This document shows, one piece after another, positions 4,867-48,428 of a stretch of DNA of 50,894 bases. The stretch is from Gammaproteobacteria bacterium (GTDB lineage: Bacteria > Pseudomonadota > Gammaproteobacteria > Enterobacterales > Kangiellaceae): contig JABXHY010000020.1 in assembly GCA_013373375.1 (NCBI GenBank), positions 1 through 50,894 of the forward strand, given 5' to 3'. Position numbers and translations under genes: made by a program. The stretch's first letter is position 1. Each line of letters opens with the position of its first letter. The notes beneath the pieces were generated by a model. The model did not search any database, was not told the DNA's origin, and saw only the letters and a program-made list of their open reading frames with translations.

Positions 4867-4867
4867 A

Positions 4868-5638: not shown

Positions 5639-5706
5639 GAACTATAGTCACCTGTCGAGTTTAAGGTGTTAATGTATTTATTTAAGTAACTTAACATAGC
5701 TATTCT

Positions 5707-6402
5707 TCAATTAGGTAGGCGTATTCGAAATATGCCCCCATTTAATTGTCCACCGTTGGCTAATTCAATATTTCCGTTTTCAGTATCGTTTTGGTGTATT
5801 TTTGCAATCTTTGCAGCAAAATAAAGGCCGAGCCCGGTACTGCCTGTACTGTAATCAATGGATTTAATGAAATTATGTTGTTGTTCAATCATATTTTGTG
5901 GGTAACCTGTGCCATCATCAGCAATTTCGATAACCAGAGCATCATCAAAATAGGCGCTCAGTAAAATTTTTGATTTTGTATAACGAATAGCATTCCCCAG
6001 CACGTTATTAATCACACTAGAAATTAAGTCAATATCAAAACATCCATCTAAATCATCTTCTGCGTCTATGTCTATTGTAATGTCTTTCGACTTTGCCAGA
6101 GGTTCATATTGCGCTGCTTGATCGGAAAGGAACTCGAACAGATTATAATAATTCAAATTAATAGGTAGTTGTTTTTGCTCAATTTTATATAAGCCTAAAA
6201 GTTGCACCAATGCTGAATTTAGTCGGCTTGATTCGTATTGTAGTACTGCTTGCTGCTTTTTGTCTTCGCTGTCAGAAGCAGGATACTTTTTTTCTAATGC
6301 ACTTATCGCGGTCATAAGAATCGCGAGAGAGTTTTTCATATCATGGACAGCTGAAGCAATTACTGAAGCGAAGTCCAGAGATTCTTTTTCTGGTTTCTCC
6401 AT
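5707..6402 (-). CDS. soluble histidine kinase without sensor domain
   Basis: 231 residues. The H-box begins almost at the N-terminus (SAVHDMKNSL, H20). The HATPase domain follows with N-box NNVLGNAIRYTKS, G1-box ADDGTGYP and G2-box STGLGLYFAAKI. There is no signal peptide, membrane helix, PAS or GAF domain, so sensing must come from a partner. Its ATG follows the stop codon of the REC-TPR gene directly (TAA-ATG, no spacer) and has an RBS aggag inside that gene, so the two are translationally coupled and likely a cognate pair. The VHDMKN H-box resembles kinases that phosphorylate stand-alone regulators. No DNA-binding regulator is nearby. Confidence 0.88.
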   Translation of the reverse strand: MEKPEKESLDFASVIASAVHDMKNSLAILMTAISALEKKYPASDSEDKKQQAVLQYESSRLNSALVQLLGLYKIEQKQLPINLNYYNLFEFLSDQAAQYEPLAKSKDITIDIDAEDDLDGCFDIDLISSVINNVLGNAIRYTKSKILLSAYFDDALVIEIADDGTGYPQNMIEQQHNFIKSIDYSTGSTGLGLYFAAKIAKIHQNDTENGNIELANGGQLNGGIFRIRLPN

Positions 6403-8031
6403 TTAGGCTTGCTCCTGCTGAATCACTCGAGTGAGTCTTAATAACTCAGAAAAACGTTGAAATCTATGATCATCAGGTGATATTGAGTTAATAGAGTTCA
6501 AGTAGCCCTCACACTTATCGATGATTGAGTCATCTGCATTTCCAGATTGATGCACCTTGAGTAACACTTGAACGGTATTGAGGATGATTGAAATATTCTT
6601 TGGACTGGCTTCGATTGCTTTGTTAAAGCAATCCACCGCTTGATCATATTTCTTTTCATCAAAAAGTTTTATGCCTTGTGAGTTTAATCGATGCGCTTGT
6701 TTTCCTTTTTCTAAAATACTTTTATCTTTTAGATGAGGTAAAGCTTTTTCAAGAAATTTCGCATCCTCAAAATTATGTTGAACCGCATCTTTTATAATTT
6801 CTTCTGCGACATCTTCTTCACCAAGATTCTGCAATCCTTGCGCTAGCTCTAAACCAGTATTCCCTGGGAGCATGGTATCAATTGTCGAGTATAATTGTTT
6901 TGCCGTTTCGGTACATTTTTTTGCTTCAGCTTCTTTCCCCTGACTTTTTAAATAATTTCCTTCTGCTACCGTTCCGCGTAACTTACACACTTTATCGTGT
7001 TTATATTCGTCATAGAATTCCTTCATGTATTTATCTGTTTCTGCGAGCATTTGCCGAGAGGCTGCAGTTGGGTCGTTAGCAATATAAGTCGATACACTAT
7101 TGGTGTATTTTATGTAGCTGTCCGGTGTTTTAAAAATGGAGTTGTCGCCTAAACGAATTGATTGTTTAAATGCATTAATCGATGATTCAAAATCTTGATT
7201 TGATTCGGCGACTTCCCCCAGTTTGTTTTGACGTTTGATTACTCTAGGAGAGCGTTTTATTGCTTCATTTAAGGTTTGTTGAGCCTCTTCGGGTTCATCA
7301 ATCTGAAGCTGGCAATCGGACAAAAGATCATAAGCTTCTAGCATCATTGGAAATTTTTTAATTGTCTCTTTCAATAAAGTTATGGCATTTTCCCATTGCC
7401 GCTTTGCCATTTGAGCTCGAGCCATTCCCACCATAGCCCATGGTATAGGCCTTTTTGCCAAAACCTCATCGTAAATGCTCATGGCTTCAGCGTATTGGCG
7501 CTTTTTCATTAATGTTTCAGCTTTAAGTTTTTCGATGGCACTTTTGTATTTTGGAAATGCCTCTAAAAGTTCATCGCATTGTTGAAGAGCGTCATTGAGC
7601 TTTCCTTTGTCGATAAAATTATAAATAGGTTGAAGCGCTTCTTTCTTTGCCGATAAATTATTTAACCTGGCTCTTAGCTGAGCGTTATTAAAAGGCTTTG
7701 TTAAGTAGGAATCGGGTTGATTTTCCAGTGCGCCCATTACCATAGCGGTAGTATTTTCTGCAGTTGTCATGATAAAAACGGCATCAGAACGAATGGAATT
7801 ATTGAAGTGCAGTTCTTCTAAAACTTGCATACCATTTTTACCGTGGCCAAGATTATAATCCGAGAGAATAATGTCGTAACTTTTCTCTCGGCAAGCTCTT
7901 ATAGCTGCCTCACCCGTATTTACGATATCAACATCATCCACACCAATTTCATTTAACATTGCACGTAACGAGCGGGCAAATTCTGCGAAATCTTCAATAA
8001 TCAAAGCGGATTTGTTTTCGTAATGAACCAT
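6403..8031 (-). CDS. response regulator with TPR repeats
   Basis: 542 residues. The N-terminal REC domain (about 8-125) has E13-D14, phospho-acceptor D58 (DIILSDYNLG), T90 and K112 (YLTKPF). The rest is a long chain of TPR-like helical repeats (about 135-520), for example AMVGMARAQMAKRQWENAITLLKE and the clear FDEKKYDQAVDCFNKAIEASP near 450-470. There is no DNA-binding or enzymatic output, so phosphorylation probably changes protein binding through the TPR superhelix. It is first in a minus-strand operon with the histidine kinase and the one-helix membrane protein, and sits next to a convergent phosphatase/STAS pair. Start ATG 8031 has only a weak RBS. Confidence 0.9.
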   Translation of the reverse strand: MVHYENKSALIIEDFAEFARSLRAMLNEIGVDDVDIVNTGEAAIRACREKSYDIILSDYNLGHGKNGMQVLEELHFNNSIRSDAVFIMTTAENTTAMVMGALENQPDSYLTKPFNNAQLRARLNNLSAKKEALQPIYNFIDKGKLNDALQQCDELLEAFPKYKSAIEKLKAETLMKKRQYAEAMSIYDEVLAKRPIPWAMVGMARAQMAKRQWENAITLLKETIKKFPMMLEAYDLLSDCQLQIDEPEEAQQTLNEAIKRSPRVIKRQNKLGEVAESNQDFESSINAFKQSIRLGDNSIFKTPDSYIKYTNSVSTYIANDPTAASRQMLAETDKYMKEFYDEYKHDKVCKLRGTVAEGNYLKSQGKEAEAKKCTETAKQLYSTIDTMLPGNTGLELAQGLQNLGEEDVAEEIIKDAVQHNFEDAKFLEKALPHLKDKSILEKGKQAHRLNSQGIKLFDEKKYDQAVDCFNKAIEASPKNISIILNTVQVLLKVHQSGNADDSIIDKCEGYLNSINSISPDDHRFQRFSELLRLTRVIQQEQA

Positions 8032-8145
8032 GCTTATTTTTTAGGCCTTGTTTCTGGTTTTGAATGTGTTAAAAGAACTTGTGAGAAGTATAGTTGCTAA
8101 TTTAAAATTTGTAATAGAATTCAATAAATTATATAAGGATTGCGA

Positions 8146-9060
8146 ATGCCTAAATCGCTTGGTGAAAAGCTAGTCGTTGCCATATCGTCGACTGCATTGT
8201 TTGACCTAGAAGACAGTCACAAAATATTTATGGAACAGGGTGTTCAGGCGTATTCTAACTATCAAATTGAAAATGAAGATAAAACGCTAAGCCCTGGACC
8301 GGCTTTTGATTTAGTTCGTAAGTTACTCGACTTAAACCAAATGGGCTCAGAGTCGAAACCTAGAGTGGAAGTGGTCTTAATATCGCGTAATTCTGCTGAT
8401 ACAGGATTGAGAGTATTTAACTCCATTCAAGCGCATAACTTGGATATTGTCAGGGCGGCGTTCACCGGAGGACGAAACCCTTATCAATATGTTTCTGCAT
8501 TTAATGCTCATTTATTTTTATCCACAAACCCAGAAGATGTTAGAAAGGCTCTTGAGAGCGGATTTGCGGCGGCTACTATTATCTCTAAAGCTAAGTCATC
8601 TCAGAATGTTAAAGCGGACAAACAAGAGTTAAAATTTGCCTTTGATGGAGATGCGGTTATTTTTTCTGATGAGTCAGAAATTATTTATAAAAAACAAGGG
8701 CTTAAAGCATTTGCCGATAACGAACGAGCCTCGGCCAAGAACCCACTAAAAGGTGGACCATTCAAATCCTTTCTTGCTGCACTGCATCAGATACAAAAGG
8801 ACTTTCCAGAGCAAGACTGCCCAATTAGAACGGCATTGGTTACCGCTCGTTCAGCTCCAGCGCATGAAAGGGTTGTGAGAACCCTAAGGAGTTGGGACAT
8901 TCGGATCGACGAGGCATTGTTTTTAGGCGGTCTGACAAAAGCAGAATTTTTGAAAGCTTATGGCGCTGACGTATTTTTCGACGATCAGCAAGGACATTGT
9001 GATTCCGCAGGTGAGTTAGTGGCGACAGGTCACGTACCTCACGGTATCGCTAATCAATAG
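8146..9060 (+). CDS. 5'-nucleotidase (NT5C1-like family)
   Basis: 304 residues from ATG 8146, which has aagga 6 nt upstream; an in-frame TTG at 8140 is less likely. It matches the bacterial members of the cytosolic-5'-nucleotidase-1 family along its length: KLVVAISSTALFDLE, then VVLISRNSADTGLRVFNSI, AAFTGGRNPYQYVSAFNAHLFLS, GFAAATI and ADVFFDDQQGHC. The ALFDLE and FFDDQ blocks stand for the HAD-like Asp motifs. The enzyme removes the 5' phosphate from nucleoside monophosphates in the cytoplasm, a salvage or overflow role. It is monocistronic and divergent from the REC-TPR gene, with 114 bp between. Confidence 0.9.
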   Translation: MPKSLGEKLVVAISSTALFDLEDSHKIFMEQGVQAYSNYQIENEDKTLSPGPAFDLVRKLLDLNQMGSESKPRVEVVLISRNSADTGLRVFNSIQAHNLDIVRAAFTGGRNPYQYVSAFNAHLFLSTNPEDVRKALESGFAAATIISKAKSSQNVKADKQELKFAFDGDAVIFSDESEIIYKKQGLKAFADNERASAKNPLKGGPFKSFLAALHQIQKDFPEQDCPIRTALVTARSAPAHERVVRTLRSWDIRIDEALFLGGLTKAEFLKAYGADVFFDDQQGHCDSAGELVATGHVPHGIANQ

Positions 9061-9071
9061 TGGTTAGCGAT
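9046..9071 (+). terminator. perfect 8-bp inverted repeat across the 5'-nucleotidase stop codon
   Basis: ATCGCTAA (9046-9053) pairs with TTAGCGAT (9064-9071) around a 10-nt loop that holds the TAG stop. There is no immediate U-run; a T-tract appears about 25 nt later after an A-run (aaaaaaacagcatttttt). It may be a weak or factor-assisted terminator. Confidence 0.35.
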
Positions 9072-9115
9072 TAATCAGGCGATCAAAAAAACAGCATTTT
9101 TTATTCGCTTTCGTA

Positions 9116-9130
9116 TGTTCCGCGTGGAAC
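9116..9130. promoter_or_regulatory. parS-like palindrome
   Basis: TGTTCCGCGTGGAAC differs at one central base from the parS core known in Pseudomonas (TGTTCCACGTGGAAC). The outer arms GTTCC/GGAAC are perfect. It lies in the intergenic space before cysB, about 80 bp from a cluster of DnaA-box-like sequences. It may be a functional or degenerate ParB site, or just a palindrome used by another regulator. Confidence 0.4.
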
Positions 9131-9207
9131 TTATTCTTTATTGTTATATATAGCAACTACTTTGGTCGAGAATTAATCAAGATTCAATATCTAGTAGTGC
9201 AAAGCTT

Positions 9208-9248
9208 TTATACACACAATACACACTCTATACACAGGTTTATCCACA
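9208..9248 (+). promoter_or_regulatory. cluster of DnaA-box-like sites upstream of cysB
   Basis: Two perfect matches to TTATNCACA are present: TTATACACA at 9208-9216 and TTATCCACA at 9240-9248. CTATACACA at 9228-9236 has one mismatch and CAATACACA at 9217-9225 has two. All point the same way at 9-12 bp spacing. Downstream, at 9266-9275, comes a TTTACTACTACT trinucleotide run and AT-rich DNA; upstream is TTATATATAG. Together this resembles a DnaA-binding/unwinding element. It could be an origin, a DnaA-titration site, or a DnaA-controlled promoter for cysB. Confidence 0.5.
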
Positions 9249-9334
9249 TTGGTTATTTTTTAGTTTACTACTACTCTTAATAAGTTAGCGGAATAAAAAA
9301 CAGTGTTTCTATTTTATTAGTTGGGAGTGGAAGA

Positions 9335-10309
9335 ATGAAGCTACAGCAGCTGAAATACATCTACGAAGTTGCTCGGCATGACCTCAATGTATCTGCTACG
9401 GCAGAAAGTCTTTACACGTCACAGCCAGGAATCAGTAAACAAATACGCTTATTAGAAGACGAACTGGGCGTGCAGGTATTTACCCGAAGCGGTAAACATT
9501 TGACCAATATTACCCCTGCGGGCGTTCGGATATTGGAAGTGACGACAGAAATACTTCAGCTGACCAAAAAGATTCAGGATATCGCTGCAGACTTTGTGTG
9601 TGAAGATAAAGGGATTTTTCGAATCGCGACAACTCACACGTTTTCACGGTACTTATTGCCAACTATTATTGAGAAATTTACCAAACAGTATCCCGATGTA
9701 AAACTGCATTTACACCAAGGAATAAATGCTCATATAGACCACATGTTGGATCATGGAGATATCGATTTAGTTATCTTTGGTGAAAGGGATGAGTGGTTTC
9801 CCGATAAAGTTCAGTTACCTTGTTTCCTGTGGCATCAATGCATTGTCGTCTCGAGAGAGCATCCTTTAAGTCGAGACGCTCATATTTCTCTTGAGAAACT
9901 TGCAAGTTTTCCCTTATTAGCAAAACTGACGCCTGATGGAAAGATGGGGGAGACACAAAAAGTATTTAAAAACGCTGGTTTGGAGCCGGACTTCGTTATA
10001 ACAGCAACAGACTCGGAGATTTTAAAGTCCTATGTTCGAATGGGAATGGGAGTTGGACTTATTGCCAGAATGGCCTACAACCCAGATAAAGACTCTGACC
10101 TTAAATTAATCAACGCCGATCATTTATTCTCGCCAACAAAAGCAAAAATTGTTTTTCATAAAAACTTTTTCTTCAGGCGCTATGTTACTGATTTTATATC
10201 AATGTTGGCGCCTCATGTTGATGAAGATATGCTGAAGAAAGTTGTTCGGTGTCGTTCATCAAATGAGCTAAACAACTTAGTGTCTGATGAGGTATTGCCT
10301 GAACGATAA
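9335..10309 (+). CDS. cysB: CysB, LysR-type regulator of cysteine biosynthesis
   Basis: 324 residues, the same length as E. coli CysB. The N-terminal winged helix is nearly canonical: MKLQQLKYIYEV, LNVSATAESLYTSQPGISKQ, LEDELGVQVFTRSGKHL. The effector domain (about 90-300) keeps CysB blocks such as FRIATTHTFSRYLLP, TATDSEILKSYVRMGMGVGLIA. CysB activates sulfate-assimilation genes when N-acetylserine or O-acetylserine accumulates. No cys genes are adjacent. The RBS ggag sits about 10 nt before ATG 9335. The unusually long, DnaA-box-bearing upstream region is noted separately. Some gammaproteobacteria carry a close Cbl paralogue, but length and sequence favour CysB. Confidence 0.92.
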   Translation: MKLQQLKYIYEVARHDLNVSATAESLYTSQPGISKQIRLLEDELGVQVFTRSGKHLTNITPAGVRILEVTTEILQLTKKIQDIAADFVCEDKGIFRIATTHTFSRYLLPTIIEKFTKQYPDVKLHLHQGINAHIDHMLDHGDIDLVIFGERDEWFPDKVQLPCFLWHQCIVVSREHPLSRDAHISLEKLASFPLLAKLTPDGKMGETQKVFKNAGLEPDFVITATDSEILKSYVRMGMGVGLIARMAYNPDKDSDLKLINADHLFSPTKAKIVFHKNFFFRRYVTDFISMLAPHVDEDMLKKVVRCRSSNELNNLVSDEVLPER

Positions 10310-28836: not shown

Positions 28837-30654
28837 TTATTGATTATCAGCTTTGCCAGATAAGTCTGCCGCCATTTCCATAATATGGAAAATGATACTT
28901 TGTTCGTTGGTACCATTAACAAGCTGAGCAAGAGGACCTTTTGCATAAATACCGACATCTTCACCAGAATGAGTTTCCGAAGAAGTTGGTATGGTGGCTT
29001 CTTGATGATACCCCGGGTTTTCAGTGTTAACACTGGTCAGATCCGCACGACCAGCACTTGGCGCAAAGTTATAACTGGCATCAGAATCTGTCTCTGTGCC
29101 TAAATCATTGAACCCAAGTCCATTGGTATAAGCTACCGTTGTGTAAGGCATATCATCTGCTGCAAGTGCGGGTTCCGTAGCGCCAACATTAACCACTTTT
29201 CCAAGAATAGGGTTACCACGTTTTGGATAACCACCAATTGTGAATACGTGACCGTGATCGGCTGTAACGATAATTAAAGTATCTTCTGGATTCGTTAATT
29301 GCATTGCACGTCTAACGGCATTCGATAATTCAACCGTATCGTTTAATGCGCCATAAGCATTACCTGCGTGATGTGCGTGATCAATCCTTCCAGACTCAAC
29401 CATTAAGAAGAATCCTTTGCTGTTGTTATCAAGAATTTTTACCGCTTTTTCTGTCATTTCAGTTAGGCTCGGTTCACCTGCAATATCGTTTCCTCGATCA
29501 GCTTCGTATTGCATGTGCGATTCGTTGAATAGTCCAAATACTCGCTCAGCTGATTCTGTATCAATTGCATCAAACCCAGTTTGTTCGTATACATAAGTCC
29601 CCTGGGGATAAGCCGATTGCCATTCCGCCGTTAAATCACGACCGTCCGTACGATCGCCTTCAACTGAACTTTGAGCATCTGGACTATTGAAAGCCACATC
29701 TTTTGGTAAGAAGTGACGACGGCCTCCACCAAAGACTACTTCGATTCCATCAACATCCACACCAGCAAACCGGTTTTCTAAATTGCTTTCAAAGTTAACT
29801 AATTGGTCTGCAATGTCTTTACAACCATCCGTAACTGCTTCTGCAGGCAAGTCCGAAATGTCTTCCCAGTTTCGATCTGCCGACTTAGCGTAAGTTGCTG
29901 CTGGAGTTGCGTGAGTGATTCGAGCTGTTGAAATAATGCCTGTCGAAAGTCCACCAATTTCTGCTAGCTCCAGTGCTGTCACTAACTCATTGCCTGCAAC
30001 GGTTGAACAGCGACCACGTTCTATGTCTTCGTCAACGCCAATTACACCGACATCGGTTTTAACGCCACTCATCATAGCGGTCATGGTACCCGCAGAATCA
30101 GGAGTTTGAGCATCAACATTATAGGTTTTCGATAATCCTGCAAATGGCATTTGACCAAAACTCAGTTGATTTTCTTCTCCCATCATTCCTTTTGCTTGAC
30201 CTTCAAAAATACGAGCAGCGGTAACGGTAGAGACTCCCATGCCATCACCAATAAACAAGATTACATTTTTTGCAGAGCCACGCTCAGTTTTTAGCGAATT
30301 AAGATTTTGTTTCGCTTGCTCGATAGAATTTTCCGATTGAATGAACCATTGATTATTGGTGCTGGTCAGTAATTGGCTTGACGATAGTGAGGTAATAGGT
30401 GCATCACAAACGTATTCCGATTGGTTGATTTCACTCTCATCTAAAATACCGTTACCGTTAGTATCAATACCTGAGTTGATTTGCAGTCCACCGTTGCGAC
30501 AATTGTCATCACCAATACTCAAAACGATTTGATCAACGAGAGAATTAAATCCATTGGAACGATCGGTGCCATCAGTTCCGTTATTGCCATCATCAACACA
30601 AGCGACCAGTCCGCTCACCGCCAATGCAACGCATGATAATTTAAATGTTTTCAT
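28837..30654 (-). CDS. alkaline phosphatase, lipoprotein form
   Basis: 605 residues. A lipoprotein signal ends in LVAC (Cys19). A linker domain (about 35-85) then holds GGLQINSGIDTNGNGILDESEI, an EF-hand-like DxNxNG loop of a kind often seen as a prefix on marine gammaproteobacterial surface proteins. The phosphatase proper starts near 128: GDGMGVSTVTAARI (metal Asp), DSAGTMTAMMSG with nucleophile Ser187, VESGRIDHAHHAGNA, VTADHGHVFTIGG and ETHSGEDVG. It hydrolyses phosphomonoesters on the cell surface or in the periplasm. It lies 29 bp behind a close paralogue and is most likely co-transcribed with it. Confidence 0.93.
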   Translation of the reverse strand: MKTFKLSCVALAVSGLVACVDDGNNGTDGTDRSNGFNSLVDQIVLSIGDDNCRNGGLQINSGIDTNGNGILDESEINQSEYVCDAPITSLSSSQLLTSTNNQWFIQSENSIEQAKQNLNSLKTERGSAKNVILFIGDGMGVSTVTAARIFEGQAKGMMGEENQLSFGQMPFAGLSKTYNVDAQTPDSAGTMTAMMSGVKTDVGVIGVDEDIERGRCSTVAGNELVTALELAEIGGLSTGIISTARITHATPAATYAKSADRNWEDISDLPAEAVTDGCKDIADQLVNFESNLENRFAGVDVDGIEVVFGGGRRHFLPKDVAFNSPDAQSSVEGDRTDGRDLTAEWQSAYPQGTYVYEQTGFDAIDTESAERVFGLFNESHMQYEADRGNDIAGEPSLTEMTEKAVKILDNNSKGFFLMVESGRIDHAHHAGNAYGALNDTVELSNAVRRAMQLTNPEDTLIIVTADHGHVFTIGGYPKRGNPILGKVVNVGATEPALAADDMPYTTVAYTNGLGFNDLGTETDSDASYNFAPSAGRADLTSVNTENPGYHQEATIPTSSETHSGEDVGIYAKGPLAQLVNGTNEQSIIFHIMEMAADLSGKADNQ

Positions 30655-30683
30655 GTTATGTAAACTCCTATAAAAATCTTCGC

Positions 30684-32267
30684 TTATTGGCTGATTAGTC
30701 CAAGTGCTTTATTAATGACGTGAAAAATATTGCTTTGTTCTACTACACCTTGAACAAGGTTTGAGCCAGGACCAGTTGCGTGTAACGAAATGTCTTCACC
30801 TGCGTGAGTTTCGGATGATAAAGGAACCAAAGCTTCTTGATGATAACCTGGTGCTGTTGTGTCAACGGCAGTTAAATCTACTCGACCAGTAACAGGACCG
30901 TCAGCGTATGAAGCATCGGAATCTGTTTCGTCACCTAAATCTCTGAAGCCTAATCCATTTGTGTATCCGACTGTTGTGTAAGGCATTCCATCAGATGCTA
31001 AAGAAGGTTCTGTTGAACCAACGCCAACCACTTTGCCTAAAATTGGATTGCCACGTTTCGGGTAACCAGCGATCGTGAATACATGACTGTGATCAGCGGT
31101 GACAAGAATCAATGTTTCTTCAGGATTGGTTGAGTCGACTGCAGCTTGAACGGCTTTCGCGAATTCAATAGTGTCGTTCAAAGCGCCGCTTGCATTTCCT
31201 GCATGGTGCGCATGGTCGATTCTTCCTGATTCAACGGTTAAGAAAAAGCCTTTACTATTTTTCTTTAACACTTGAATTGCTTTTTCAGTCATCTGACTGA
31301 GAGAAGGTTCGCCAGCAATGTCGTTAGCTCGATCGGCTTCGTATTGCATATGTGATTCATTGAATAGGGCGAATACTTTGTTAGTTGTTGATGGGTCTAT
31401 CGCATCAAAACCCGTTTGGTCGTAAACATAAACGCCATCTTCGTAAAGGGTTTGCCACTCAGCAGTTAAATCGCGTGAGTCAGTACGATCACCTTCGACA
31501 GAGCTGCTTGCATCTGGAGAGTTGTAGGCTTCATCTTTTGGTAAAAAGTGACGACGACCGCCTCCCATTACTACATCAATGCCGTCTACATCGGTGCCAA
31601 CATAACGCGCTTCAAGGTTGGATTCGAAATTAACCAGTTGGTCGGCAATATCTTTACAACCCGCGGTTATGGCCGCTTCTGGCATGTCCGACACATCCTC
31701 CCAGTTACGATCGGCAGACTTTGCATAAACTGCGGCTGGGGTCGCGTGCGTAATTCGAGCAGTGGATATAATACCGGTTGAAAGTCCTTTGATCTCTGCA
31801 AGTTCTAGTGCAGTAGCGACTTCATTTCCAGCAACCGATGAACAATCACCGCGCACAACATCTTCATCTATTCCGATTACACCAACGTCTGTTTTCAGTC
31901 CAGAAACCATAGCGGTCATTGTTCCGGCAGAATCAGGTGTTTGTGCGTCCACGTTGTAGGTTTTCACCAAAGCTGTGTAAGGAAATCTTTCGAAGCTTAA
32001 ATAACTTTCTTCGCCGTTGTTTCCTGCTTTTTGGCCTTCGAGAATTCGAGCTGCGGTAAGAGTTGAAATACCCATGCCGTCACCGACAAATAGAATTACG
32101 TTTTTCGCTTTTGCGCCGGTATTACGGTTCAATTTTTCCGCGAGTCGAGATTGTGCATCTTGATACCATGCATTGTCAGTTTGATAACTTGGAAGGGTGT
32201 CAGCTTGTAGCGCTGATGATATCGCGACTGTTAGAGTGCTAGCGATACCAAGAGTCTTTAATTTCAT
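30684..32267 (-). CDS. alkaline phosphatase, soluble periplasmic form
   Basis: 527 residues with a Sec signal ending near LQA-DT. Active-site blocks are those of the PhoA superfamily: GDGMGISTLTAARI (D63), PDSAGTMTAMVSG with nucleophile Ser113, VESGRIDHAHHAGNA, VTADHSHVFTIAGYPK and ETHAGEDIS. It lacks the lipid anchor and calcium-loop prefix of its neighbour but is otherwise near-identical over long stretches, pointing to tandem duplication. It is the first gene of the unit. A three-part CTGTCAT-like repeat about 95 bp upstream suggests PhoB control by phosphate shortage. Confidence 0.94.
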   Translation of the reverse strand: MKLKTLGIASTLTVAISSALQADTLPSYQTDNAWYQDAQSRLAEKLNRNTGAKAKNVILFVGDGMGISTLTAARILEGQKAGNNGEESYLSFERFPYTALVKTYNVDAQTPDSAGTMTAMVSGLKTDVGVIGIDEDVVRGDCSSVAGNEVATALELAEIKGLSTGIISTARITHATPAAVYAKSADRNWEDVSDMPEAAITAGCKDIADQLVNFESNLEARYVGTDVDGIDVVMGGGRRHFLPKDEAYNSPDASSSVEGDRTDSRDLTAEWQTLYEDGVYVYDQTGFDAIDPSTTNKVFALFNESHMQYEADRANDIAGEPSLSQMTEKAIQVLKKNSKGFFLTVESGRIDHAHHAGNASGALNDTIEFAKAVQAAVDSTNPEETLILVTADHSHVFTIAGYPKRGNPILGKVVGVGSTEPSLASDGMPYTTVGYTNGLGFRDLGDETDSDASYADGPVTGRVDLTAVDTTAPGYHQEALVPLSSETHAGEDISLHATGPGSNLVQGVVEQSNIFHVINKALGLISQ

Positions 32268-39987: not shown

Positions 39988-40025
39988 AGAAAAAATTTAA
40001 GCGCAAAAGTTCAAAGGTGACGAAT

Positions 40026-41387
40026 TTGCAGTTTAAGCATTCAGGTAAATCACGTAAGTTTTTAATTTTAACCGTATTATTATCGGTTTTCTTCCAGGCC
40101 TTTGCGTTTTCAGCACAATCCGACATAAACACTACTCAATCCGCTCAAGATTTATTCAGCAATTTTGCCGATCGCTTGTTTCAAGTTAGAACGATTGATC
40201 GCGCTTCTGGTAGTAAAGCATCTATCGGTTCTGCTTTTGCGGTGAGTGCATCTGGCGTATTGGCGACAAATTATCATGTGGTTTCAAAGTATGTAATTGA
40301 TCCTGAAAAGTATCGAATAGAAGTGCTCACCAGCACAGACGATATTCTGCCTATTTCGGTAGTCAACATCGACGTTATCAACGACCTGGCATTAGTTAAA
40401 TTAGATACTTTCGAATTGCCAGTACTATCGCTTGCCGACACAAGCCCAACAAAAGGTGAGCAAATATATTCCTTAGGTAACCCAAGAGATCTTGGAATGA
40501 CGGTGGTTCCTGGTACTTTCAATGGCACAACCGCACATTCGTATTACGATCGAATTTTATTTTCAGGCTCTGTTAACCCTGGCATGAGTGGCGGTCCTGT
40601 TCTGAATGATAAAGGCGAGGTTGTTGGTGTCAATGTTGCGACATCGGGCAATCAGTTAAGCTTTTTGGTTCCACTGGTTAAGTTGCAACAATTAATGCGA
40701 TCAGAGCCGGTTAAAAACTTAAACTTTAAACAGCTTGCTCGCACTCAACTGACTAATAACCAAAGTCAACTTATGACTGAACTGTTATCTGGTAATTGGA
40801 AACTGAGTGAACTAGGTGATGCAACGGTTCCAGGAGAGTTTACCGACTTCATTAGTTGTTGGGGTGAGTCCGACCAAGCACGTGATGTAAAGTTTTCGCA
40901 AGTGTTTAAGCGTTGTAGAAACTCAGAATACATTTATATAGCGCCTGATTTTTATACTGGTATCTTTGAAATGGAATTTTATTGGTACAGCACAACAGAG
41001 TTAACCAACTGGCAGTTTTACCGGATGTTAAATGACTCTTTTGGCAGTGCGAGCGCAGGTAATGTGTCGAGTGAAGATCACGTCACAGAATTTCAATGTC
41101 GAGATGATTTTTTAAAAGGGAAAGATAAAAACACGGATGCGCTTTCAGTTGGTCAACAATCAACAAATGATAAGACAACTCAGATAAGTGATAACAACTC
41201 AGAAGTATCAAAAGTGGTTTACTGTGTGCGTGAGTATAAAAATTACCCTGGGCTGTATGACGCTTTGTATTTATCGGCTTCATTAAATCTTAAACAAAAA
41301 AGTCTGGTAAGCCATTACACATTATCAGGTGTAAGTCAGGCAAATGCTGAGAGTTTTCTAAAGCGATTTATGGAGTCAGTACTATGA
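40026..41387 (+). CDS. periplasmic trypsin-like serine protease
   Basis: 453 residues from TTG 40026, chosen because a near-perfect aaaggtga sits 5 nt upstream; GTG 40017 would add three residues. A signal sequence ends near AFSA-QS. The chymotrypsin/HtrA-like domain spans about 45-230 with an intact triad: H84 (TNYHVVS), D120 (INDLALVKLD) and S188 (NPGMSGGPVL). There is no PDZ domain. Instead a C-terminal region of about 220 residues follows, with scattered cysteines (FISCWGESD, FKRCRNS, EFQCRDD, VVYCVREY), which I do not recognise. Its stop overlaps the ATG of the FHA gene (ATGA), tying it to the kinase cluster. Its substrate may be a partner encoded here. Confidence 0.85.
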   Translation: MQFKHSGKSRKFLILTVLLSVFFQAFAFSAQSDINTTQSAQDLFSNFADRLFQVRTIDRASGSKASIGSAFAVSASGVLATNYHVVSKYVIDPEKYRIEVLTSTDDILPISVVNIDVINDLALVKLDTFELPVLSLADTSPTKGEQIYSLGNPRDLGMTVVPGTFNGTTAHSYYDRILFSGSVNPGMSGGPVLNDKGEVVGVNVATSGNQLSFLVPLVKLQQLMRSEPVKNLNFKQLARTQLTNNQSQLMTELLSGNWKLSELGDATVPGEFTDFISCWGESDQARDVKFSQVFKRCRNSEYIYIAPDFYTGIFEMEFYWYSTTELTNWQFYRMLNDSFGSASAGNVSSEDHVTEFQCRDDFLKGKDKNTDALSVGQQSTNDKTTQISDNNSEVSKVVYCVREYKNYPGLYDALYLSASLNLKQKSLVSHYTLSGVSQANAESFLKRFMESVL

Positions 41388-42517
41388 ATTTGGTCATAGA
41401 AGAAATAAATCGCGCCAGAAAAGTATTACATCGGCACAAATTTTTCGATAAAACAATTTTGATGATTGGTCGTGCGCTTGATAATGATATTGTTTTGAGC
41501 GAACCACACGTATCGCCGTATCATGCTGAATTACGATTAGGTGATGACAATAAGTGGAAAATATACGATTTAGACAGTACCAACGGTATTCGCAGTGAGC
41601 GGCGAAAGCCCATAGAATCTGGAAGCGTTATTGAGTCGGGTTCGACCTTCTTGTTAGGGCGTTGTTACTTAAGTATTTGGGATCAACAGCACCCAGTAGA
41701 AGAAACATGGCCTTTGCATTCAGTAGAAGAGGTGTTTCATCGTTTAAGTCATGCGGGCGTAGTGTTGATTTTATTGGCGGCGTTAATTTTCGGCGAGTGG
41801 CAGTTCGCTGTTTTGCAGTCTTATCGAGATCTGGCGCCATCTCGTCTGGTTAACGAATTGCTGTATGAAGTTGTCGCGGTGCTTGGCTGGGCTTCTGTCT
41901 GGTCGCTTAGTGGTCGAATTCTGAGGCATGATAGCCGGTTCCTGAGTCATCTTGCGGTAACCATCGTTGCTGCCATGTTACTGCAGTGGACACCTCACCT
42001 GTTGCGTATTGTGGCGTTTAATATTGATTTTGGCCTATGGATAACGGAAGTCAGCTACTTTATCAACGGACTAATATTTGCCTCTCTATTGTGGTGCAAC
42101 TTTTATCTCGCTTATCCGCAAAAACCAATGGTTCGTATCGTTTGGTCCAATACAATCGCATGGGGGATGGTGCTGGTTTATTTATTACCACCGCTATTTG
42201 ATCGCCAGGGATATCGCGGTTATCCGTTATATGACAGTACATTGATGCCCGCAAGCCTTGTGTGGGAAAAACCAGATTCACTAAACAGCTTTTTAAAATC
42301 AACCAAAAGCCTTTATCAGTTCAGTGAAGTTTCTGATGGAGTCAAAGAAATGGTTGAATCTGACAACCAAAAGTCGAAAGTGGATACCGACAAAGATATT
42401 CTCAGCAAAGACAGTCCCGGCAAGGATAATCCCAACAAGGATAGCCCCAGCAAGGATAACCCCAGCAAAGACGAGTCACCTATCGCGGTTGACAAGAAAA
42501 ACCCATCCGATAGATAG
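41384..42517 (+). CDS. FHA-domain multi-spanning membrane protein
   Basis: 377 residues. An N-terminal FHA domain (about 22-98) has the phosphothreonine-binding residues R30 (MIGR), S44 and H47 (SPYHAEL) and N67 (DSTNGI). Five likely membrane helices follow (about 123-143, 162-180, 188-210, 222-243, 251-270). The hydrophilic tail (285-377) ends in five tandem copies of a Lys-Asp/Asn-x-Pro-Ser/Asn pentapeptide. The domain order suggests it reads phosphothreonines, probably made by the Ser/Thr kinase encoded next. The ATG overlaps the protease stop by 4 bp. The frame continues beyond its TAG stop with a similar low-complexity tail. Confidence 0.85.
   Translation: MNLVIEEINRARKVLHRHKFFDKTILMIGRALDNDIVLSEPHVSPYHAELRLGDDNKWKIYDLDSTNGIRSERRKPIESGSVIESGSTFLLGRCYLSIWDQQHPVEETWPLHSVEEVFHRLSHAGVVLILLAALIFGEWQFAVLQSYRDLAPSRLVNELLYEVVAVLGWASVWSLSGRILRHDSRFLSHLAVTIVAAMLLQWTPHLLRIVAFNIDFGLWITEVSYFINGLIFASLLWCNFYLAYPQKPMVRIVWSNTIAWGMVLVYLLPPLFDRQGYRGYPLYDSTLMPASLVWEKPDSLNSFLKSTKSLYQFSEVSDGVKEMVESDNQKSKVDTDKDILSKDSPGKDNPNKDSPSKDNPSKDESPIAVDKKNPSDR
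42404..42478 (+). repeat. five tandem 15-bp repeats in the FHA-protein tail
   Basis: Consensus AGCAAGGATAACCCC, with copies starting at 42404, 42419, 42434, 42449 and 42464. It codes for S/G/N-K-D-S/N/E-P/S pentapeptides. In-frame expansion or loss of units would only change tail length. Confidence 0.85.
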
Positions 42518-42589
42518 GACTCTTCGCAACAGCATAATTCGATTGAGCAAGAGAAACCTATTGAGCAAAACAAGCCGAACGAGCAATAA
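42518..42589 (+). other. in-frame continuation of the FHA protein after its TAG stop
   Basis: Directly after TAG (42515-42517) the same frame runs 23 more codons to TAA 42587-42589 and encodes a repeat-like Glu/Gln/Asn/Lys/Pro-rich stretch (IEQEKPIEQNKPNEQ). This looks like the former end of the protein, cut off by a single nonsense change, or a read-through extension. Confidence 0.5.
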
Positions 42590-42891
42590 AAGCTTGTTCT
42601 GGAGGATAAAAGTAGAGCGAAATGCTGCTATTTGGCTGGTCATTATTGAATCGTAAGATGAACTCAATTGCTCAGATTGGCAATGCCACAGAGCCCTTCG
42701 GGTATAGGCCTATGGTTAGTAATTAAGCTGTTTTAACCATCTCGAAAGGAGACATTTGAGAAACCTCGACTGTATCACACCTTGCCTAAGCTATTTTCCA
42801 ATGTTTGCTATAAGTTTGCCTGAAGATCTATTATTATCAATAAGTTACTATTCATAGAACAATAACAATAATCGATTGGGGAAAACCTCGT
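42590..42891 (+). promoter_or_regulatory. 302-bp gap before the Ser/Thr kinase gene
   Basis: No firm gene. AAAGGAG (42745-42751) precedes a TTG-started 33-codon frame (42756-42857) of unremarkable composition, perhaps a leader peptide, more likely chance. A small CCC-TTCG-GGG hairpin lies near 42697-42706. The gap implies that the kinase gene has its own promoter, but I see no clear -35/-10 pair. Confidence 0.3.
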
Positions 42892-45135
42892 GTGAGCTCT
42901 ATAAACATCCCGGGTTATAAAATTATCAAAACACTAGGTGTCGGTGGGCAGGCGACTGTCTATTTGGCTATCCAGCAGGGGTTTGATAGAGAAATTGCGT
43001 TAAAAGTGATGTCTCCTGCTTTAGCCGCCGATCCGAGCTTTGGTGAACGATTTTTAAGAGAAGCAAAAATCGTTGCTAAATTGCGCCATACGTCAATTGT
43101 TACAGTGTACGATGTTGGTGAGCATGATGGTTTCTACTATCTGGCGATGGAATACTTGCCCGAAACCGACCTGCGAACCAGAATCGAAGGTGGGTTAAAA
43201 GCAAAAGACGCACTGCAGATTATCCAAAGTATCGGTAAAGCACTTCATTTTGCTCACAAGCAAGGCTACATTCATCGTGATGTTAAGTCTGAAAACATTT
43301 TATTTCGAAGTCTTGATGAACCAGTACTAACGGATTTCGGTATTGCTAAGGCATCAAACTCCTCAACTCAGATGACCCAGCAGGGTAAGCTGATTGGAAC
43401 CCCACAATATATGAGTCCTGAACAATGTCGCGGCCGTGCGCTTGATGGCAGATCGGACATTTACAGTTTGGGGATTATTTTTTACGAAATGCTCACGCAG
43501 TCAGTTCCTTTTGAGGGCGAGGATTCAGTTGCGGTTTGTTTACAGCATGTCACAAAGCCAATTCCTCGTTTACCGGCAAGACAGCAACATTACCAGTGGT
43601 TACTTGATCGGATGTTGGCGAAAGAACCAGAGGATCGCTTTCATGACGCCGAAAAAATGGCCAAAGAGATTGAACGGTTTGTCTCTGGAGAAGTATCACC
43701 TAGCCACGCCCCAACCATAACCATTGAAAGTGATCAAATTTCTGCTCGTCGAGATGATTACAGTAAAATGGAAGAAGAGGAGTTTGGCAGTCGAGCTGAC
43801 TCTTCTTCAAGAATAGGTTCCGGCACCAAATCTTCTTCCAGGCGTTGGCCTTATGTCGTATTTTTTCTGGTGTTGATTGGTGCTGGGGGATTTTTTACTC
43901 AAGCTAAATGGTTACCTCAAGCAAAAAATATTTTAGCGCAAATGTCTGGTGAGTCAGCCAGCCAAGTAGCAGACAGTAGCCTTCAGCAAACTACTTTACC
44001 CGCTGAGAAAGTGGCTGTTCAAAATCAAATTGCCAACCTTCTAGTTGAAGCTAATTCTTTATTGGGCATTCCTAAGCTATCGCCTCAGCAAGCAGAACAA
44101 GTATTGCAGAACTTTCTTAGAGTAATGGCATTAGAGCAAGACAATCCGAAGGCGAGTAGCGGCATTATGACCGCTACTAAAAAAATTAAACAGCTCGCGG
44201 AAGAAGCTCTAGCAGCAAATGATTACGAAGCTTTTGATTCCTATCGTTCGGTAATAAAAAATGTATTGCCACAGCACAATGTTTTAGAGGAGTTTCAGGT
44301 TGTTGAAGACAACTGGAAAAACTCTCAGCAGCTTGCAGTGCAGGAAACGGAACGACAGGAGCAGGTTAAAGCTTTTTTGAAAAAGGGTGAGTCTGCGTTG
44401 TTAAAAGGTGATCTAACAAAACCTGTGGAAAATAATGCTTGGTACTTTTTTCAACAAGCACTGTTGATCGATGAATCGAATGCCAGTGCTTTAGAAGGAC
44501 AGTCAAAGGTTATCGATAGAGTGATGGATAACGCGAAACAAGCCTTGTCCAATAAAGATCCAAACGGCATGAAAAATAATATAGACGTTCTTAAACAGTT
44601 AAATCCTGAATCTTCTGAAATTGGAACGTTAGAGCAAGAGTACACAGAGTTAAAAGCCCAAGTAGAAGAAGAGCAGAAAAGAATAGCCTTAGCCAATGCA
44701 AAAAAAGCAAAAGAAGAGGCAAGAAAAAAATTATTAGCGGATCCTTTAACAAAACTTAAAATTAGCAGTAAATTGGATGCTGCTCAGGCCGCTTATGATG
44801 AAAATCGTCTGGTGACACCTGAAGCAGATAACGCTTTAAGTAAGTACAAAGAAGTGCTTGACATTGATGACCAAAACCAACGAGCGCTTGATGGTATAAA
44901 ATTAATCGAAGAAAAACTTGTTTCACAAACTAAAAATGCGATCGCTAACTCTGACATAAGTGGAGCGGAAGAAAACTTGATTCAGTTAAAAACATTTTTT
45001 TCTAACAACCCATTGATTCCCGTGTTACAGCAGCAAATATCAGAAATCGACGTAGTAGTCGAACAACCGGTTGAAGACGAATTAACGTTAAATACTCGCA
45101 TATCAAATAATCCAAAAACGAGAAAACTGACATGA
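42892..45135 (+). CDS. membrane Ser/Thr protein kinase with long periplasmic region
   Basis: 747 residues from GTG 42892. The PknB-type kinase domain (about 8-265) is complete: glycine loop LGVGGQATVYLA, K38 (ALKVM), HRD D130 (YIHRDVKSENIL), DFG D148 (LTDFGIAKA) and TPQYMSPEQ. An acidic, Ser-rich juxtamembrane segment (280-317) follows, then one membrane helix (about 319-336). The periplasmic part (340-747) is helical, with TPR-like and coiled-coil stretches (EEEQKRIALANAKKAKEEARKK), instead of PASTA domains. It would sense envelope state and phosphorylate cytoplasmic targets, plausibly read by the FHA protein. Its stop overlaps the lipoprotein ATG (ATGA), so the two are co-translated. Confidence 0.93.
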   Translation: MSSINIPGYKIIKTLGVGGQATVYLAIQQGFDREIALKVMSPALAADPSFGERFLREAKIVAKLRHTSIVTVYDVGEHDGFYYLAMEYLPETDLRTRIEGGLKAKDALQIIQSIGKALHFAHKQGYIHRDVKSENILFRSLDEPVLTDFGIAKASNSSTQMTQQGKLIGTPQYMSPEQCRGRALDGRSDIYSLGIIFYEMLTQSVPFEGEDSVAVCLQHVTKPIPRLPARQQHYQWLLDRMLAKEPEDRFHDAEKMAKEIERFVSGEVSPSHAPTITIESDQISARRDDYSKMEEEEFGSRADSSSRIGSGTKSSSRRWPYVVFFLVLIGAGGFFTQAKWLPQAKNILAQMSGESASQVADSSLQQTTLPAEKVAVQNQIANLLVEANSLLGIPKLSPQQAEQVLQNFLRVMALEQDNPKASSGIMTATKKIKQLAEEALAANDYEAFDSYRSVIKNVLPQHNVLEEFQVVEDNWKNSQQLAVQETERQEQVKAFLKKGESALLKGDLTKPVENNAWYFFQQALLIDESNASALEGQSKVIDRVMDNAKQALSNKDPNGMKNNIDVLKQLNPESSEIGTLEQEYTELKAQVEEEQKRIALANAKKAKEEARKKLLADPLTKLKISSKLDAAQAAYDENRLVTPEADNALSKYKEVLDIDDQNQRALDGIKLIEEKLVSQTKNAIANSDISGAEENLIQLKTFFSNNPLIPVLQQQISEIDVVVEQPVEDELTLNTRISNNPKTRKLT

Positions 45136-47036
45136 CTAAATCAGCTTATAAAATACTCATTATGTTAACAGTCATCGCTGTTTTGCTTGGGTGTGGTGAA
45201 AAAAAGCCAATGGTTACCCAGCAAGATATAAGTGCAGCAAGACAAAATGGAAACCTTGAGCAGTTATACGCTAAAGTTAACGCAGATTTAGCTGAATCCT
45301 CAGGCTCTCGACAAGCCTCTTTGAAAGCAATTTCGATGCAAATTGCATTACAACTAGCAAAAGATAACCAAGCAAAAATATACCAAACGATAGAAGATAA
45401 TCGTTTACCTGGGGGTGTAACGTCACTTGCACTACTAAATGATCTTGAGCAACAAGCCAATAATATCCAACAGTGGGATACGGCTACCTCAACAGAGACG
45501 TTGCAAAAAATTCGTTCTGAAAAGTCCCTGGCGCAAACGGAACTTCAAAAAACATTAGTGCGTGTTTCTAAAATTCCAGTTTCAAACGAGTTGGAACGAC
45601 TCAATGCGATGAATATGGCGGCAAAGATTGCCGGTGAAGGCAGCCCTCAGTACAACAATTTTGTGAATCAAAAAGATCAAACTATTGCTACCTGGATGTC
45701 TCAAGCCGACGCTGCAATAGCAAATCGAGAATACACTCTTGCTGCAACGTTTTTGAGAAAAGTGTTGGGGCTTGAGCCGGAAAATCAGGAAGCGAAAGAC
45801 AAGTTGGCAAACTCTGAGCAAGAAGGGTTTGAATCTGCTTTTCGAAAAGCGCTCGAAGATGAAAAGCCAGAATTAGCATTGAGTGAACTGCAAAGAATTT
45901 CAATTTCGCCTTTGTTTTCAGGTATCAAAAGCTCTTTGGAATCGAGTATTTCTGCGCTTCATGAGTACTTTATTAATCGAGCACTTCAAAACTCTTCGCA
46001 AGGAGCTTTGAAAACGGCATACAAAAACTATAAGAAGGCTCGAACCATACGAGAGATTATGGAGATGCCTGCAAAACATAATGCAGAGAAGGATTATATC
46101 GAGCGGCTAATTAATTTTTCTAATGTTAAAGGGCAAAAGAAAGAATACGCTCAACAGTTGGCTTACCTTGAGATGGCGAATGAGTTTGATTCGGAATACC
46201 AAAATCTGGCAAAGACACTTCAGGATGCTCGAACTAACATCGTCGAATACGCTGCGACCTCAATGTTAGTTAAAGATTTTGCTCAAACGGGAACGCATCA
46301 TTCCGCAGGTAAATCGGTTGCGAAACAAGTTTATAATTGGGTATTCAACAACCTTAAAGGTGATGTTGCCTTAGTTTCAGCAAGCCAGATGTCTAATGCA
46401 GACACTTCAGCTCCAGGTAGATTATTAACTTTAGAAGGTGATATTTTACAGGCTGGTGTAGATTCAGAATCCACCAACAGCCAAAAAACCATGAGAGTAA
46501 CCGTTGAAACTATTAAAACTCCTAACCCAGAGTTTCAGGAATGGAAAGAAGACGGCTCAGAGGGAGAAGCGCCTCAAGAGTTTTTCGTAGAGGAAAAGCA
46601 AGAAAACATTTCAGTTGAAGTTTCTCATGTGCGTAAAACAGGCATTCTTTCGATTAGTTTCAGAGTTATCGATCAAAAAACAGGACAGGTATTATTGAAC
46701 GAAACGGCTCGAGACAAACAAGTTTCTGAAGGTGAGGGGAATGAAGGCGTAAGTATCGGTGAATTCGAATTACCTTTTCGCCGCCCCGAGCTTCCTTCTG
46801 ACCTCGAATTAATGGAGCAGTTATCAAATCAAGTCGCGATCCAAATTGGTGAAAAGTTACAGGCGATATTAACCTCTCCGGATCGTCGATATGAAGAGAT
46901 GGCTGATGCAGCATTGAAGCAAAAACAATATGCCGCTGCTAAAGCGTATTACGGCTATGCCACGGCCATTCGTGGGATGAAGGGAGACTATCAAGACGTG
47001 AAAACAAAATTGATCGATACTGTGATTAACTACTAA
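45132..47036 (+). CDS. large TPR-like lipoprotein, partner of the kinase
   Basis: 634 residues. The lipoprotein signal ends in LLGC (Cys21). The first 380 residues are helical with TPR-like units (EYTLAATFLRKVLGLEPENQEAKDKL, then the ELALSELQRI and YKNYKKARTI stretches). A beta-rich region (about 430-560: RLLTLEGDILQAGVD, ISVEVSHVRKTGILSISFRVIDQKTGQVLL) and a final TPR-like helix pair complete it. Residues after Cys21 are Gly-Glu, which does not give the Asp+2 inner-membrane signal, so outer-membrane location is likely. I do not recognise the family. The 4-bp overlap with the kinase gene and the shared TPR style suggest direct contact in the periplasm. Confidence 0.85.
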   Translation: MTKSAYKILIMLTVIAVLLGCGEKKPMVTQQDISAARQNGNLEQLYAKVNADLAESSGSRQASLKAISMQIALQLAKDNQAKIYQTIEDNRLPGGVTSLALLNDLEQQANNIQQWDTATSTETLQKIRSEKSLAQTELQKTLVRVSKIPVSNELERLNAMNMAAKIAGEGSPQYNNFVNQKDQTIATWMSQADAAIANREYTLAATFLRKVLGLEPENQEAKDKLANSEQEGFESAFRKALEDEKPELALSELQRISISPLFSGIKSSLESSISALHEYFINRALQNSSQGALKTAYKNYKKARTIREIMEMPAKHNAEKDYIERLINFSNVKGQKKEYAQQLAYLEMANEFDSEYQNLAKTLQDARTNIVEYAATSMLVKDFAQTGTHHSAGKSVAKQVYNWVFNNLKGDVALVSASQMSNADTSAPGRLLTLEGDILQAGVDSESTNSQKTMRVTVETIKTPNPEFQEWKEDGSEGEAPQEFFVEEKQENISVEVSHVRKTGILSISFRVIDQKTGQVLLNETARDKQVSEGEGNEGVSIGEFELPFRRPELPSDLELMEQLSNQVAIQIGEKLQAILTSPDRRYEEMADAALKQKQYAAAKAYYGYATAIRGMKGDYQDVKTKLIDTVINY

Positions 47037-47114
47037 GTACTGGTTGCTGGTTTGAAATATTATCCAATTCTTTGTTTGCGACTAAAATAGTATGACCGGT
47101 TTTCGGAGAGCCTT

Positions 47115-48428
47115 ATGAAGTGTGTATTTGATACCACAATTAATTTGAAACAATTGGTATCCACTGGTATCGAAAAGCTAATGTTACCGGTAAATGGTAA
47201 GCCTATGCTGGACCAGCACTTTTCAAACATGAGTCAGGCCGGTGTTACCTCATTATTCGTTTTGATTGAAACCGAGTCTTCTTTACGTCCGGTTATTGCA
47301 AGAGAAGCATTAAAGTACGGCTTTAACCCCACGTTTTTAGAGGTTGAACAGGAACAAATAGCGGATCGAAAATCTATTATGATAGCCGAACCCTATTTGA
47401 AAGATGTATTTCTATATTGGCCAGCGAATCGATTAGTGTCGGATGACGTGATTCGCAGTTTGGTTGAGCAACCAATGACCAATCATCAAATGGCGTCGGT
47501 TGTTTATACTGGGAAGTCGCATCCTCATTGTGATAAACCTGGTATTTATAAAGTGGTTCACAATGCAAATAACCAAGCAGGTGATGATAACCCCAATCAG
47601 CCAAAAGAGCCGGGTACTCCAGGGTTCGATATCGGTGTGTACAAATGCGGCACCATTATTTTTAAATTGATCAAGAAAGTTGCCGAAAATCGAGCACTTA
47701 GCTGGAATAGAATACAGACTGCGTTGAGTAGGGCTGGTCGATCAATTTTCGTTACAACTGAATCTGATCATTGGGCTTTAATAGAAACAAAGAAAGACAT
47801 TGAAACACTTGAGACTTTATTAGCATCAAGAACAATCGATAGGGCAGATTTAAATAACATTGATAAGTCGGTTTTTGAAGGTTTATACAGTTCCATCTTG
47901 CCTCCCTTATTACGGATCGACTTCATTAAATCGCAAGGTGCAAGTTTCTGGCTGCTCGGTATTGTGATTGGGTTAGTTGTCATGTTACTTGGTAACTGGT
48001 TGTTTTTATTAGGCGGTACTTTAGTCGTCGCATGCTTTATGGCGACATACCCAATTATCGAATTTGTTGGTGGTCAAAGCGCGCTAGTTAATCTATTAAA
48101 AAATAAATCACTTGCCGTATTTAGAATATTAATCGTGTCTGTGTTTAGCATATTGTGTTTCAAAGCGTTTGGCTTAGGCTTTTGGACGTTAATAAGCTTT
48201 TTGACGCTTGGTGCTGAGATTTATTTTGTTATTAAGCCCGAACCGATTCACGAACAAAGAGTAGAGTCGATCACAAGTAGTTTTGCCATCCATACCGGTT
48301 GGTTATTGTGTTCGATTTTCTTTTTCTTATCGACGTTAACTCTATTTGTTTACAGTTTGTTATCCTTAAGTATTTCTATTACAAAAGGCTTGCAGGTTTA
48401 TAAAGCCTATCAAAGGGACAAAGAGTAG
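47115..48428 (+). CDS. degenerate nucleotidyltransferase fused to a membrane domain
   Basis: 437 residues. The N-terminal half (1-240) has the outline of an NDP-sugar/CTP-inositol-phosphate nucleotidyltransferase (IEKLMLPVNGKPMLDQHFSNMSQAGVTSLFVL), but the glycine-rich nucleotide loop is gone. The linker SDHWALIETKKDIETLETLL matches how such enzymes end before a CDP-alcohol phosphatidyltransferase domain. The C-terminal half has about five or six helices (278-418) in that position, but the DGxxAR...GxxxD catalytic motif is absent. I therefore read it as a decayed or repurposed fusion of the inositol-phosphate cytidylyltransferase/DIPP-synthase type; this is from pattern memory and unproven. 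It follows the lipoprotein gene by 78 bp. Confidence 0.6.
   Translation: MKCVFDTTINLKQLVSTGIEKLMLPVNGKPMLDQHFSNMSQAGVTSLFVLIETESSLRPVIAREALKYGFNPTFLEVEQEQIADRKSIMIAEPYLKDVFLYWPANRLVSDDVIRSLVEQPMTNHQMASVVYTGKSHPHCDKPGIYKVVHNANNQAGDDNPNQPKEPGTPGFDIGVYKCGTIIFKLIKKVAENRALSWNRIQTALSRAGRSIFVTTESDHWALIETKKDIETLETLLASRTIDRADLNNIDKSVFEGLYSSILPPLLRIDFIKSQGASFWLLGIVIGLVVMLLGNWLFLLGGTLVVACFMATYPIIEFVGGQSALVNLLKNKSLAVFRILIVSVFSILCFKAFGLGFWTLISFLTLGAEIYFVIKPEPIHEQRVESITSSFAIHTGWLLCSIFFFLSTLTLFVYSLLSLSISITKGLQVYKAYQRDKE

Follow-up and report, generated by a model that had tools for sequence, protein, structure and literature searches.

Little is known of what most Gram-negative Ser/Thr kinases sense, and the most thoroughly studied example, to our knowledge, is linked to type VI secretion. 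The sections of PMC10482370 drawn on here give a membrane kinase, an FHA protein and an outer-membrane lipoprotein as parts of the PpkA pathway, and place outer-membrane TagQ and periplasmic TagR upstream of PpkA. We analysed a 50,894-nucleotide stretch (the window; contig JABXHY010000020.1 of the Kangiellaceae assembly GCA_013373375.1) in which five neighbouring genes can be compared with this pathway. Like PpkA-Fha-PppA with TagQRST in Pseudomonas, the window encodes a membrane Ser/Thr kinase, an FHA protein and a predicted outer-membrane lipoprotein; it differs in that TagR, TagS and TagT were not seen, the FHA protein is rejected as a TagH by score (TIGR03354, 24.4 bits against a cut-off of 120.25) and the lipoprotein is TPR- and CsgG-like. 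The core of the locus is a two-gene pair, kinase and lipoprotein, which probably carries envelope events to the cell interior, and the five genes are not one uniform unit. All five open reading frames (ORFs) are intact and lie on the + strand (40017-48428 in the ORF list):

40017..41387, + strand: exported trypsin-like serine protease with an S1C/HtrA-like catalytic domain (Trypsin_2, 3e-25), without PDZ, C-terminal domain unclassified
41384..42517, + strand: protein with an FHA domain (aa 28-92; Pfam FHA, 6e-12), hydrophobic segments and a tail of low complexity; lineage-specific addition
42518..42891, + strand: 374-bp gap 5' of the kinase gene (171-374 bp in 6 of 6 loci)
42892..45135, + strand: Hanks-type Ser/Thr kinase (Pkinase, 5e-50) with a single transmembrane segment and ~409 periplasmic residues that hold two TPR-like repeat blocks; core gene
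45132..47036, + strand: lipoprotein with a TPR-like helical N-terminal part and a CsgG-like C-terminal domain that is degenerate in the window copy; core gene
47115..48428, + strand: membrane protein with a degenerate nucleotidyltransferase-like domain (sub-threshold matches) and C-terminal hydrophobic segments; lineage-specific addition

The first-pass annotation had described five same-strand genes with two 4-bp overlaps, and both overlaps are confirmed (protease/FHA and kinase/lipoprotein). The other spacings are 374 bp from FHA to kinase and 78 bp from lipoprotein to transferase-like gene. The protease may start at GTG 40017 or at TTG 40026, the latter with AAAGG immediately 5'.

Among the 40 genomes of the family sample, the lipoprotein profile matched 18 and the periplasmic part of the kinase 19, namely those 18 genomes and, weakly, G162 (73% complete). 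Neither was found in any of the 20 small genomes of genus g2 (most 2.3-2.9 Mb); the part of PMC6000758 consulted here reports genome reduction in Kangiella. Together with G013, G017 and G038 from the order sample and G185 from the class sample, there are 22 lipoprotein genomes, and in 19 of them the kinase gene adjoins the lipoprotein gene, upstream and on the same strand (18 loci including the window, plus G157; in one of the 19, G159 at L048, both frames are broken). The partnership of kinase and lipoprotein envisaged in the first-pass annotation was thus supported by adjacency as well as by the family profile. Of the remaining three genomes, two (G151 and G017) cannot be judged for adjacency because of contig ends, and in one (G185) the genes are unlinked. 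The kinase part in G151 runs to a contig end, and the lipoprotein contig begins with an acidic tail resembling the tails of related kinases, which is no more than suggestive. In G185, which belongs to another order, the lipoprotein gene (L136, 8793-10799) has no kinase beside it; the sole Hanks kinase match in that genome, 476 residues long, includes a transmembrane segment as well as a single copy of the periplasmic repeat, which a profile built without G185 found at 1.4e-16.

The lipoprotein is rare, as judged from the few full-length or long matches in the wider samples. Its profile matched 12 of 369 genomes in the class sample, full-length only in the window's genome (G000) and G185, with ten weak matches to the TPR-like part, and 25 of 394 genomes in the order sample, of which 19 matches were long and six weak and TPR-like. 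A scan of named genomes with the window lipoprotein gave no relative; the same scan with three distant homologues gave two metagenome-assembled sequences (PCTP01000077.1 and DFOV01000041.1), which are not counted beyond the 22.

The kinase domain is complete (Pkinase, 171 bits against a cut-off of 31.7), as expected of a Hanks-type kinase, and all 6 aligned copies conserve the catalytic Lys, the HRD and DFG motifs and the activation loop. A single hydrophobic segment (aa 322-338) is followed by 409 residues, in agreement with the earlier estimate of about 400 periplasmic residues. The earlier claim that PASTA domains are absent likewise stood, with no PASTA match in Pfam or NCBIfam. The window kinase shares its fold and single-pass layout with the Stk1/PknB PASTA kinases and matches NF033483 at 319 bits, but this is under the cut-off of 450 and the extracytoplasmic part is TPR-like, and identity as a PASTA kinase was rejected on the score and the missing domain.

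The window lipoprotein has a signal peptide followed by an LLGC lipobox, and a lipobox is also present in 17 of 17 other placeable N-termini, with a loose pattern and starts picked to fit. At the position that the lipoprotein sorting rule considers, directly after the lipobox Cys, the window copy has Gly and not Asp, and the protein most likely sits in the outer membrane, a predicted location. Its Pfam matches, TPR among them, are all sub-threshold, and NCBIfam gave no match. In a search of solved structures the lipoprotein profile matched TPR proteins over ~65 columns, and neither it nor a profile of the three CsgG-positive homologues described below matched a CsgG chain. The protein aligns full-length with homologues at 23-62% identity, including one, at 24% over the full length (E 3e-47), that passes Pfam CsgG (PF03783). 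The copies in G013, G017 and G038 pass this cut-off (E 4e-6, 1.5e-4 and 1.2e-7), and a VEREQL-type motif that they share is lost, in the alignment, from the window copy and its family. CsgG is the outer-membrane curli exporter. On sequence grounds the window lipoprotein appears to be CsgG-like by descent, a term we use because three full-length homologues pass CsgG while the family copies have lost the motif; it differs from the CsgG (curli assembly lipoprotein) family in its long TPR-like N-terminal part, its lost signature and its kinase gene partner. The earlier description of a TPR-like lipoprotein was therefore right as far as it went but incomplete, since the protein ends in a CsgG-like domain.

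The protease tail and the transferase-like gene have a narrower distribution. The tail was found in 6 of the 40 family genomes (the five from the window's genus and one from a sister genus) and the transferase-like gene in the same six, always at this locus; in the fetched loci of those six, which is where the FHA protein was looked at, the FHA gene stands between those for protease and kinase. The five-gene order is kept in all six, and five of them share an eight-gene order (HI0933-like, the five genes, QueG and Bcp) at 30-68% protein identity; for the sixth (L033) the fetched stretch stops before QueG and Bcp, and its first six genes are in order. Because eight genes keep their order at such identities, the five-gene neighbourhood is beyond chance. 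In the fetched stretches of genera g67 and g68, kinase and lipoprotein occur without the other three genes, and QueG adjoins in most. The kinase-lipoprotein pair is older, and the protease, FHA and transferase-like genes were added in the window's genus and its sister genus. Co-occurrence in other genomes, the lack of which the first-pass annotation had named as a refutation of its model, held for five genes in six genomes and for the pair only beyond them, and the idea of five genes as one old system found no support.

The protease retains His, Asp and Ser in 6 of 6 aligned copies. Its 211-residue tail, which the first-pass annotation had called an unknown Cys-bearing domain, indeed has no Pfam match at E<=0.01 and carries four Cys that are invariant in the same six copies. 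The catalytic domain is shared with HtrA/DegP/DegS (TIGR02037, 81 bits), but the protein is far under the cut-off of 416, has no PDZ match in Pfam or NCBIfam and bears the unclassified four-Cys tail, and membership in HtrA/DegP was rejected. In the FHA protein, Gly-Arg, Ser, His and Asn-Gly, which we take to be the functional residues of the FHA motif, are retained in 6 of 6 copies, and hydrophobic segments above threshold number one in the window copy and four in L036. The reading frame remains open for ~23 codons past the TAG stop of the window FHA gene (42515-42590), behind a repeat-rich tail that is missing from the five homologues. The transferase-like protein has only sub-threshold nucleotidyltransferase matches in Pfam and NCBIfam, and the Gly-rich loop, which we take to be the NTP-binding motif of nucleotidyltransferases, is missing in 6 of 6 aligned copies; we rejected an active nucleotidyltransferase (NTP_transferase) on both counts.

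Our best reading is a trans-envelope Ser/Thr-kinase sensor that would work like PpkA with TagQ. Gene order, domains, intact catalytic motifs and conservation of the pair, all of which are observed, form its basis; from these we infer the outer-membrane location, a contact between the two proteins and the direction of signalling. The kinase would span the inner membrane once, with its catalytic domain inside and its TPR-like repeat domain in the periplasm, where the lipoprotein, predicted to lie in the outer membrane, would act on the repeat domain or be monitored by it; changes in the outer envelope would thereby alter kinase activity. We propose that the lipoprotein informs the kinase because this would be analogous to TagQ and TagR upstream of PpkA, as given in the sections of PMC10482370 cited above. 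The intact catalytic motifs make inward signalling by phosphorylation plausible. In the six genomes with all five genes, the exported protease could trim a periplasmic partner, and phosphothreonine that the kinase makes could be read by the FHA membrane protein; judged by position alone, these two are the likeliest processor and the likeliest reader, respectively. We propose no role for the third addition, the degenerate transferase-like membrane protein. We give a probability of roughly 0.5 to a core pair that signals across the envelope and to which three proteins were added in the window's genus and its sister genus. A more elaborate version, in which a type-VI-independent general sensor has the lipoprotein span the periplasm and touch the TPR-like domain of the kinase, inter-membrane distance or integrity is converted into threonine phosphorylation, and the protease and FHA protein of one lineage relay this to a transferase-like output, seems doubtful to us.

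A PP2C-type phosphatase, whose absence the first-pass annotation had taken to set the locus apart, is a weaker distinction than it seemed. In G013 and G038, which belong to another family, the gene order is PP2C-kinase-lipoprotein, with an FHA-membrane gene divergent from PP2C (and, in G013, a rhomboid gene after the FHA gene), so that there, as in PpkA-Fha-PppA, a PP2C-type phosphatase lies beside the kinase. The window's genome has two PP2C_2 genes, on contigs C47 and C95, neither near the window kinase, and several FHA genes outside the window. Contig C47 carries a PP2C-FHA-kinase cluster (L064, 9165-12570, - strand), whose PP2C is 42% and whose FHA protein is 39-43% identical to the G013 and G038 counterparts over most of the length. 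Given this homologue elsewhere in the genome, a phosphatase could act on the system in trans. The window FHA protein matches the FHA proteins of G013 and G038 over only 52-83 residues of the FHA domain, and is thus not the same protein.

Several observations weigh against a signalling pair. The family-wide profile of the pair follows genera and so reflects few independent events. G017 (91% complete, lipoprotein at a contig end) has the lipoprotein, yet neither of the two kinases found in it resembles the window kinase. Kinases of genomes in which the lipoprotein is absent carry the periplasmic repeat too (G192, G282, G246, G475 and G398; five of the seven kinase ORFs recovered from nine fetched loci, with the kinases of G542 and G502 missed), which makes the kinase type broader than the pair. 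Mirror-tree partial correlations given QueG (12 genomes) were 0.70 for periplasmic part and lipoprotein and 0.75 for catalytic domain and lipoprotein, so that co-evolution with the lipoprotein was no stronger for the periplasmic than for the catalytic domain. CsgG was undetected in 16 of 19 aligned lipoproteins, including the window copy, and in that of G185 at E<=0.01. The five genes are, moreover, split by the gap between FHA and kinase, because of which the protease-FHA and kinase-lipoprotein genes may form separate transcripts; this gap contains promoter-like matches, but across the region promoter and terminator matches were no more frequent than in shuffled sequence, and an Rfam scan of the window gave 0 matches.

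The same gap, kept at 171-374 bp in all six loci, fits the alternative that these are neighbours and not a system, in which kinase with lipoprotein, protease with FHA protein, and the transferase-like protein on its own serve separate functions, their genes being co-inherited at a stable HI0933-like/QueG locus. In most fetched g67 and g68 stretches the kinase-lipoprotein pair adjoins QueG and the other three genes are missing, which points the same way, since the three would have been gained or lost independently of the pair. We nevertheless consider separate functions somewhat unlikely: protease tail and transferase-like gene share one distribution (6 of 40, always here) despite 28-64% identity, and the protease/FHA overlap is kept, at 4 bp in five genomes and 1 bp in the sixth. 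It is also conceivable, if improbable, that the lipoprotein is not a sensor but a client, a CsgG-like outer-membrane secretion or assembly protein whose amount or opening the kinase controls. The CsgG-like domain above cut-off in three homologues, and the role of CsgG as curli exporter, would suit a client, but the window copy and its family have lost the signature, inspection of the window by eye alone showed neither a curli gene nor a CsgG-related secreted substrate, and a periplasmic protein would be out of direct reach of a cytoplasmic kinase. Least probable of all, and very unlikely in our view, is a type VI role, with the locus as the threonine-phosphorylation pathway and the remaining secretion genes elsewhere. 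A kinase, an FHA protein and an outer-membrane lipoprotein are that pathway's parts in the cited sections of PMC10482370, but the FHA protein reaches only 24 of the 120 bits for TagH, no type VI gene was recognised by eye in the window ORF lists (no systematic search was made), and none turned up beside 20 homologous loci, whose neighbours were examined for the query genes and not for type VI families.

A defence system was also considered. The kinase has many PADLOC matches (PD-T4-6, mad6 and others), mainly covering the kinase domain, the protease has weak ones, and the FHA, lipoprotein and transferase-like proteins have none in PADLOC; we dropped this reading because there was no further sign of a defence island.

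Related kinase genes showed other arrangements. In G192 (L182) a class III cyclase gene and a kinase with the same repeat are followed by an unrelated coiled-coil lipoprotein of 262 residues, a second kinase-lipoprotein pairing; the three genes, at 4643-5431, 5471-8071 and 8245-9780, are all on the - strand. In the window's genome a 585-residue ORF with two Pkinase matches (G000 C2:49776-51257) lies beside a 395-residue ORF with three FHA matches (C2:48339-49310), and two Pkinase matches in a single ORF also occur at G150:C36 and G160:C55. Elsewhere in the window, a response regulator fused to a SpoIIE-type phosphatase (3186-4409) lies beside a small ORF (4399-4866) that has no Pfam match at 1e-5 and is presumably STAS-like, and two similar neighbouring ORFs (28837-32267) look alkaline-phosphatase-like by eye.

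In the open-licence literature searched, which leaves most subscription papers outside, we found no description of a CsgG-like or TPR lipoprotein with a threonine kinase. With a kinase and a single lipoprotein encoded together in several genera, there is a small, testable candidate for a ligand-receptor pair, and the locus shows the addition of accessory genes to a kinase-lipoprotein core.

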